Shown here in pieces: positions 53,642 through 55,323 of a DNA stretch of 62,664 bases. A program made the translations under genes and the position numbers. Every line of letters begins with the position of its first letter. The stretch's first letter is position 1. The DNA is from a virus. A model generated the notes under the pieces. It saw nothing but the letters and a program-made list of their open reading frames with translations, did not search any database and was not told where the DNA came from. The DNA lies in IMG/VR virus record IMGVR_UViG_3300050821_011855, positions 1 through 62,664 of that record. One strand, 5' to 3'.

Positions 53642-54086
53642 AGGGGCGATAGTAATACTCGCCGTAGCCCCAGCGCCAGGGAAACGGCAGCTTAGGTGAA
53701 CCGCCCGGCTGCACGCCCGCCCACATGACCCAAGCGAGCCACGGGTGCCCGGTCGCGGCGACGCAGCGCCAGAGGCCCTCGTCCGCGCTCGCGCGTTGCT
53801 CGACCGTCCCGCCGCGCCAATACCAGAAATCGTGCCCGACGCAGCAGCCCTCGAACGGCGGCGGCGCTCCGAACACGGCGCGCCACCCGATCGACAGGCC
53901 TCCGGAGCAGCCATCCGACGTGAAGCGGTAGACCGGGCGGGGCTCGACTTGGTCGCTCGCGGCGAGGAGGTCTGCCGGAATCTCGACGCGCGGCGACGGC
54001 ACCACGTAGGGCGCGATGAAGAACGCCGCGATAATGACCGCTGCGATTTTGGCGGCGCGAATCAAAGCCCGAACTCGCGTTTCCAA
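53628..54086 (-). CDS. Phospholipase A2-like membrane-anchored protein
   Basis: 152 residues. An N-terminal anchor (AAKIAAVIIAAFFIAPYVV) is followed by FTSDGCSGG (about 56-63) and FEGCCVGHDFWYWRGGT with CCxxHD (81-86), the catalytic signature of phospholipase A2-fold enzymes. Then CVAATGHPWLAWVMWAG and LPFPWRWGYGEYY. Located between holin-like and endolysin genes, so it may attack membranes at lysis. Catalysis is inferred from motif. Confidence 0.68.
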   Translation of the reverse strand: METRVRALIRAAKIAAVIIAAFFIAPYVVPSPRVEIPADLLAASDQVEPRPVYRFTSDGCSGGLSIGWRAVFGAPPPFEGCCVGHDFWYWRGGTVEQRASADEGLWRCVAATGHPWLAWVMWAGVQPGGSPKLPFPWRWGYGEYYYRPYASN

Positions 54087-54700
54087 AGATCGAGTTGCCG
54101 GCGGCGCTCAGCGAGACCATTCAGGCCTCCGTTAAGCGCACGCGTCTCGCCGATCAAGTCATCCTTCGCCGCGTGCGGCAAGCATCCGCACAGACACCAG
54201 TCCGCGACCCCACATTCGAGCGCGTGCGCCGGATCGCTGATGAGGTCCGGTTCCTCCATGATGTCGATCTCGACACCCTTCTCGGTGAGGAATTTCTGGA
54301 GCTTCTCATAGCCCTCGCGGCCGGTGACCTGGGAGAGCCCGCGCCCGCGGTAGTTCCAGCCATCGTCGGACGGGGGCGGCGCGTTGCGCATTCTCCCCCC
54401 ATAGGCGATGTCCGCGATGAGCCGGGGGTTGTGCGCGGCGCGCTGGGCCATGGCGGGCGTGAAGTGGGTCGGGAACGTCTTGCGCAGCCCGGCGGCCGTG
54501 TAGTTCATATTTTCCACCATTTCTAATCCTTGGCCGCACTCCTCGGAGAACTGCGCCATCGCGTGCGCGACGACGAGCGCGGAGTCGAGCCCGTATTTCG
54601 CGAAGACTTCGGAGTGCGTCGCGACGATGCCCTCGATCAGGCCGGGGACGTGCTGATTCCCCGCAGGCCATCTTCGGTGCATGATTTCTAAGGTGAGCAT
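54062..54700 (-). CDS. GH19-family endolysin
   Basis: 212 residues from MLTLEIMHRRWPAGNQHVPG. VVAHAMAQFSEECGQGLEMV carries the catalytic Glu region; YGGRMRNAPPPSDDGWNYRG and RGLSQVTGREGYEKLQKFL are the GH19 chitinase/lysozyme core. No signal peptide, so export depends on a holin. The first 15 codons differ almost everywhere at synonymous positions from a remnant of the same N-terminus at 55258, on the far side of an HNH gene; the start overlaps that HNH gene by 13 bases. Confidence 0.85.
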   Translation of the reverse strand: MLTLEIMHRRWPAGNQHVPGLIEGIVATHSEVFAKYGLDSALVVAHAMAQFSEECGQGLEMVENMNYTAAGLRKTFPTHFTPAMAQRAAHNPRLIADIAYGGRMRNAPPPSDDGWNYRGRGLSQVTGREGYEKLQKFLTEKGVEIDIMEEPDLISDPAHALECGVADWCLCGCLPHAAKDDLIGETRALNGGLNGLAERRRQLDLWKREFGL

Positions 54701-55176
54701 GATCCATATTCTCGTTTGTTGTTGTTCTGCTCTGTCCACGTCGCCCATCGGCAATTCGTCGGCTCGTAGTTCCCGTCATTGTCGACACGTTCGAGCGTCA
54801 GACCAGAAGGGCGCCGTCCCATATCGGCGATGAAGTTTTCAAACGAATCCCAGCGCGCGCAGACGCGAATGCCTCGCCCCCCATGGTATCTGAATTTCTT
54901 GTGCCTGGGGTTGTTGCAGCGCTCTCGCATCGCCAGCCAGACGCGATACTCGGGCATGGAATAGCTGAGACCATGCTTGAAGTTCCGGTCGGCAACTTGC
55001 TCACGATGAAGACATCCGCATGACGATGTTTTGCCCTTTCGGAGCTTGCCGCCCTGTACTTCTGTTTCGGCTCCGCATTCACAACGGCACAACCAACTAT
55101 GCCATTTGCCGCCCGTGAATCGCAGGACTGTGAGCCGCCCGAACTTACTACCGGCCAAGTCGATTACTTTCCCCAT
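54688..55176 (-). CDS. HNH-like homing endonuclease at endolysin start
   Basis: 162 residues from MGKVIDLAGSKFGRLTVLRF. N-terminal zinc module (CRCECGAETEVQGGKLRKGK, SCGCLHREQ) and C-terminal GGRGIRVCARWDSFENFIAD, LTLERVDNDGNYEPTNCRWA and EQNNNKR, the same family as the gene at 39972. It lies exactly between an endolysin start remnant and the present endolysin start. Confidence 0.82.
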   Translation of the reverse strand: MGKVIDLAGSKFGRLTVLRFTGGKWHSWLCRCECGAETEVQGGKLRKGKTSSCGCLHREQVADRNFKHGLSYSMPEYRVWLAMRERCNNPRHKKFRYHGGRGIRVCARWDSFENFIADMGRRPSGLTLERVDNDGNYEPTNCRWATWTEQNNNKREYGSCSP

Positions 55177-55258
55177 GGCCGACGTTGTGCCATACGGCCA
55201 GCGAAAGCGCAAGGTCTCCGTGGGGCCACCGCCGCTGCATCATTTCGAGCGTCAGCAT
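55148..55258 (-). pseudogene. Remnant of the endolysin 5' end
   Basis: After a good ribosome-binding site (GGAGGCGCGCACG) the frame reads MLTLEMMQRRWPHGD, matching 11 of the first 15 residues of the endolysin, then loses similarity and stops at TAG. Most matching codons use different synonymous bases. It appears to be the original gene start, cut off when the HNH gene inserted. Confidence 0.65.
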
Positions 55259-55323
55259 CGTGCGCGCCTCCAAGTTGCAGCCGCAGCATTGGCCCGCCGC
55301 TGGCGCTCCGTCAAGGGCGCGTT

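Follow-up and report, generated by a model that had tools for sequence, protein, structure and literature searches.

Displaced and replaced gene ends beside phage HNH endonuclease genes: a candidate splicing-free homing element in an endolysin gene

The window analysed here is the IMG/VR virus record IMGVR_UViG_3300050821_011855 at its full length of 62,664 nt. On its minus strand, the tail genes are followed by a short endolysin start, an HNH endonuclease gene and the working endolysin gene, in this order. The features of the locus are as follows.

55267..55271, minus strand: GGAGG, ribosome-site-like sequence preceding the remnant start
55214..55258, minus strand: remnant, apparently the displaced native endolysin codons 1-15, MLTLEMMQRRWPHGD (from relatives; GC3 0.87)
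55148..55258, minus strand: short remnant ORF, 36 aa, overrunning the HNH start codon
54688..55176, minus strand: HNH endonuclease gene, free-standing, 162 aa from ATG 55176 (PHROG 374)
54656..54700, minus strand: putative replacement endolysin start, codons 1-15, MLTLEIMHRRWPAGN (GC3 0.60, HNH-like)
54062..54655, minus strand: endolysin body, codon 16 onward (QHVPGLIEG...; PHROG 181)

The original prediction, that two versions of one protein start lie on either side of the HNH gene and that the remnant has a good ribosome site, describes the locus correctly. The remnant begins at ATG 55258 with GGAGG 8 nt 5' of it; the present endolysin start lies at ATG 54700, overlaps the HNH stop by 13 nt and is preceded by a ribosome-site-like sequence weaker than that of the remnant, and the gene ends at 54062. 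Translational coupling of the 36-aa remnant ORF to the HNH start is possible. A third similarity (RFRWPYGT, 55190-55212) was set aside, as it may be due to chance.

The target gene was assigned to the PHROG 181 endolysins (E 1.1e-43), and no Pfam model matched the endolysin (54062-54700), even with E values up to 1 allowed. The HNH protein falls into PHROG 374 'HNH endonuclease' (E 4.8e-63) and contains the conserved motif of the family, including cysteine pairs and DNDGNYEPxNCRWAT; it received no Pfam name, and a Foldseek search of its structural model (pLDDT 86) against the PDB gave no significant match, the best being the HNH enzyme PacI (E 0.34, TM 0.2). The ORF is open from TTG 55212, and ATG 55176, which lies inside the limits first drawn for the locus, is most likely its start. 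The gene stands outside any group I intron or intein: Rfam predicted no catalytic group I intron structure in the window insert, and likewise no intron in the inserts of the 11 other IMG/VR loci and of the KIL tail-sheath start described below, with a KIL intron as the positive control.

The two endolysin starts agree at 11 of 15 residues (29 of 45 nt), and they use a different codon at seven of the eight shared residues that offer a choice of codon, in agreement with the prediction that most synonymous positions differ. Their flank similarity score of 62 was reached by none of 322 mismatched-flank comparisons (maximum, 50). Endolysin relatives were collected (eleven at first, and more by profile search); the HNH-less relatives examined carry no HNH gene upstream, and their gene reads ...RWPHGDQHVPGLIEG... 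or similar. Measured in nucleotides, 10 of 12 HNH-less relatives resemble the remnant more closely than the present start (one tie, one exception). The present version of the start, whose presence there would have spoken against the original prediction, occurs in none of the HNH-less endolysin relatives. The remnant and the gene body have GC3 values of 0.87 and 0.84, compared with 0.60 for the present start and 0.65 for the HNH gene; the first 15 body codons directly after the present start have a GC3 of 15/15, and the composition step falls at codon 15/16. A general AT-rich effect at gene starts was checked and fails to explain the shift; the HNH-less relatives have no comparable GC3 drop at the gene start (pooled, 0.63 vs 0.69). 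Since remnant and body are alike in GC3, as are HNH gene and present start, the former look native, and the latter look like a single newcomer.

These comparisons also bear on a mosaic exchange, in which an HNH gene together with a whole foreign endolysin replaced the old one and left a scrap of its start, with no special part for the nuclease or for the divergence. The nearest endolysin relative, L002 (81% identical), has several codon choices of the present start (CTC, ATC, CCT, GGG, AAT), and neither a close syntenic empty-site relative nor a near-isogenic pair was found for the window phage, so that exchange of the whole endolysin is conceivable here; furthermore, an identity of 0.64, as between remnant and present start, is not unusual among relatives (0.38-0.71; mean, 0.55), and phage endolysin modules commonly recombine. 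However, the step in composition lies at codon 15/16 and not at a gene end, and most relatives are closer to the remnant than to the present start; with the additional evidence given below, we regard a mosaic exchange as unlikely. As four residues also differ between the two starts of the window, the new one may be a foreign diverged allele and not a purely synonymous recoding.

For recurrence, 162 distinct loci of the window's HNH family were taken from IMG/VR, and their translated upstream and downstream flanks were compared. In sense orientation, a score of at least 43 was reached at 10 of the 162 loci, compared with 17 of 3000 mismatched flank pairs; other genes of the same loci, used as a control, gave 12 of 436 at the same threshold, and at least some of these control matches are real tandem repeats or low-complexity sequence. 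After each match was read, and weaker well-placed matches and the antisense direction were added, 12 of the 162 loci (window included) were credible in that two diverged copies of a gene end flank the nuclease; at each credible locus, the score was equalled or exceeded in 0-2 of 322 mismatched comparisons, and L026, L160 and L190 are the weaker ones. They are distributed as follows.

5' type, sense: window endolysin, L021 RusA, L041 spanin-like, L120, L076
5' type, antisense: L039 holin
3' type, sense: L026, L265 DnaB, L160, L151
3' type, antisense: L249, L190

In L120 and L076, the HNH N-terminus carries the displaced start as a fusion, and the HNH C-terminus is formed by the displaced end in L026, L265 and L160; the remnants comprise only 9-31 codons across loci. 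Pooled over the nine sense loci, GC3 is lower in the replaced segment (75/145) than in the remnant (97/145; p=0.012) and in the adjacent 15-codon block of the gene body (98/135; p=0.0004), and the replacements of L076 and L265 differ little from their own remnants (about 80% nt identity). The recurrence of this layout at many unrelated genes, beside the same nuclease family, argues further against a mosaic exchange.

A flanking duplication is not detectable in most members of this HNH family. A scan of genome contigs for the HNH gene yielded only 3 loci, and HNH matches were found in 12 of 297 genomes of one host's order, at loci with no clear duplication. Nine HNH loci of named phages had no flanking duplication, and among twelve further ones it was found in KIL3b only. 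Several strong flank matches were discarded: those at L116, L165, L213 and L157 as low-complexity sequence or chance similarity out of frame, that at L187 as distant and far from the boundary, and that at L225 as repeated nuclease-associated domains.

The HNH-less relatives that represent empty sites carry the target gene in a single copy, and native and replaced ends were distinguished at three such sites, two of them in IMG/VR. L361 lacks the HNH gene but is related to L265 and shares its next gene. The DnaB gene of L361 ends AADMPAAFEGFM, with GGGTTCATGTGATG leading into the gene that follows. In L265, this form lies downstream of the HNH gene, whereas the working gene ends HSEMPPAFEGFF. 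The comparison identifies the downstream remnant of L265 as the native end of DnaB, which adjoins the next gene. L391, an HNH-less relative of L120, has the start MPAFELRPVMGSDCLEIL, which matches the L120 remnant at 29 of 39 nt and the replacement at 22 of 39 nt, with native sequence resuming at codon 14; this shows the L120 remnant, too, to be native. Among named phages, nothing close to the targets of L076, L120 and L160 was found.

The clearest of the three empty-site comparisons is that of cultured Pseudomonas syringae phages at the tail-sheath gene, where the site is empty in KIL1 and occupied in KIL2, KIL3 and KIL3b; KIL1 and KIL3 are a presence/absence polymorphism at the same site for this class of elements. 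The sequences of KIL3b and KIL3 are the same in the compared region, and KIL3b is identical to KIL1 at 499 of 500 nt upstream and at 895 of 900 nt of the gene body, so the insertion leaves the whole gene body unchanged, contrary to a mosaic exchange. The native sequence survives at 27 of 27 nt in the KIL3 remnant, which continues as a fusion with the HNH gene; the replacement start keeps 22 of 27. The 3' side of the KIL3 HNH gene reads AGGAGACTATC, ATA ACT GTC CTA ACC, and then GATATCATCGAA ATT...; GATATCATCGAA is found at both junctions of the insert. Codons 2-5 (TVLT) are all (4/4) synonymously changed relative to the native sequence, and the start codon reads ATA. The KIL phages provide the best evidence for synonymous recoding.

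The native start is kept at 26 of 27 nt in five HNH-less KIL relatives, even though the identity of two of them falls to about 66% over the following 300 nt. In KIL4 (L419) and KIL5 (L418), the middle of the HNH gene is deleted and both starts are retained, likely a decay stage of a homing cycle. Among the tail-sheath genes of L417, L420, L421, L423, L424 and L425, the first 27 nt hardly vary at synonymous positions (26/27), against an identity of only about 66-77% in the 300 nt that follow; this suggests that an additional DNA or RNA constraint acts at the site entered by the HNH gene. In L409 (KIL3b, at 1797), L422, L418 and L419, the restored start is ATA for ATG with AGGAG 6 nt upstream; the HNH-bearing KIL phages have no other in-frame start before this ATA, and the deposited annotation begins the gene far downstream. 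Near the 3' end of the tail-sheath gene (L422, 3063-3296; L418, 2662-2895), Rfam detects a group I intron (RF00028, 71.9 bits), which is followed by a putative endonuclease gene; hence, the tail-sheath gene hosts both an intron and a splicing-free element.

An intron at the insert itself, with the present start not used, is very improbable. HNH genes are often intron-borne, the 12-nt repeat at both KIL3 junctions would allow splicing to regenerate the native message, and fungal introns with duplicated N-termini have been described (PMC7315562). Yet Rfam finds no intron in the inserts while it detects one, of group I, farther downstream in the KIL tail-sheath gene, the replacement segments keep the protein sequence (in KIL, by four synonymous changes and with an AGGAG of their own), and antisense insertions occur. 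The least probable of the alternatives is a tandem gene duplication with decay of one copy and an HNH gene between the copies by chance. The HNH gene of L138 does lie between two full-length homologous genes, for small membrane proteins, but the empty sites are single-copy, the remnants are limited to 9-31 codons, and no duplication intermediate is seen between the near-identical KIL1 and KIL3.

It is likely, in our judgement, that the insert is a splicing-free homing element consisting of a gene for a site-specific HNH nuclease and a replacement copy of an end of its target gene. In an endolysin gene that lacks the HNH insertion, the nuclease would cut near codon 15/16, and repair from the carrier phage would copy in the HNH gene and the replacement start, with the upstream region and codons 1-15 as the homology arm on one side and the gene body as that on the other. 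The recipient's old codons 1-15 would be left upstream as the remnant, available as an arm for the next round of transfer, and the replacement start would restore the reading frame of the endolysin. As the replacement start differs in sequence, the restored junction would probably no longer be a target of the nuclease, and the difference is consistent with resistance to cleavage; cleavage at the junction, homing and protection are what we infer from sequence comparison. The claim of the original prediction that a recoded start restores the target is well supported by the composition of the window, the 11 other loci and the empty sites in L361, L391 and KIL1, though four residues of the start differ as well in the window. 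The broader proposition, that phages harbour a widespread natural home-and-rescue class in which an HNH nuclease is accompanied by a recoded part of its target gene, from either end and in either orientation, so that important genes could be entered with no need for splicing, is favoured with less confidence.

Yeast WHO elements and mobile ORFs of fungal mitochondria already follow the logic of such an element, and Tremella introns do so in another form. The WHO elements of Torulaspora and Lachancea yeasts (Coughlan et al. 2020, PMC7282813) combine a nuclease gene with a resistant replacement end of FBA1, with no splicing, and the displaced old end has been proposed as a second homology arm (PMC7282813). 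A nuclease gene with a replacement gene end, a displaced native end and the absence of splicing are common to these and the phage loci; for displaced and replaced ends beside the nuclease, the evidence comes from the empty sites in L361, L391 and KIL1 and, in the window, from composition and relatives. In WHO elements, however, the nuclease is eukaryotic and intein-derived with a zinc finger, FBA1 is the main host gene, only 3' ends are involved and cleavage has been shown, whereas the phage loci have HNH nucleases, many targets, 5' and 3' ends, both orientations and a presumed cleavage; the window, with its phage HNH family and endolysin target, has neither the intein-like domain and zinc finger nor the FBA1 target of WHO elements proper.

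Mobile ORFs with duplicated C-termini in fungal mitochondria (Glomus atp6, atp9, cox2 and nad3; Allomyces atp6; PMC3630166) similarly place an endonuclease ORF in a gene, where a foreign diverged terminus yields a hybrid gene and the native terminus is displaced, but they encode LAGLIDADG or GIY-YIG enzymes and involve C-termini only. In Tremella (PMC7315562), a mobile element with an N-terminal duplication also exchanges a fragment of the host gene; these elements were read as introns, whereas no intron structure was detected in the phage inserts. Intronless homing is known for the free-standing phage endonucleases SegF, SegG and MobE (review PMC2988022; also PMC12724721), likewise HNH or GIY-YIG genes with double-strand-break repair and co-conversion of flanks; in contrast, these are mostly intergenic and cut at a distance, and displaced and replaced gene ends were not found described in the available portions of these sources. 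The engineered HomeR home-and-rescue drive (PMC7968924) has a nuclease in an essential gene and a re-coded rescue of the missing end in common with the phage loci, but is synthetic, CRISPR-based and built in Drosophila. Nuclease genes at exchange boundaries were already known (PMC10448857). The literature searched contained no report of displaced and replaced gene ends beside phage HNH genes; its partial coverage makes this no proof of novelty.

Under the proposed mechanism, a selfish nuclease with neither intron nor intein could live inside coding sequence by supplying a substitute end, as a natural counterpart of engineered home-and-rescue gene drives. This would make gene ends points of exchange in phage genomes and would account for otherwise puzzling duplications of gene starts and for start codons that are mis-annotated; with KIL1 and KIL3, near-isogenic and cultured, the idea is directly testable.

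Other arrangements were observed among the HNH loci. In L044, the HNH ORF continues in frame into a MazG-like protein, and in L053 and L054 the order of the HNH domains is reversed, with the nuclease part before the DNA-binding part. In L269 (Escherichia phage PGN829.1), two pieces annotated as DNA polymerase I flank the HNH gene, representing a split gene or an intron.
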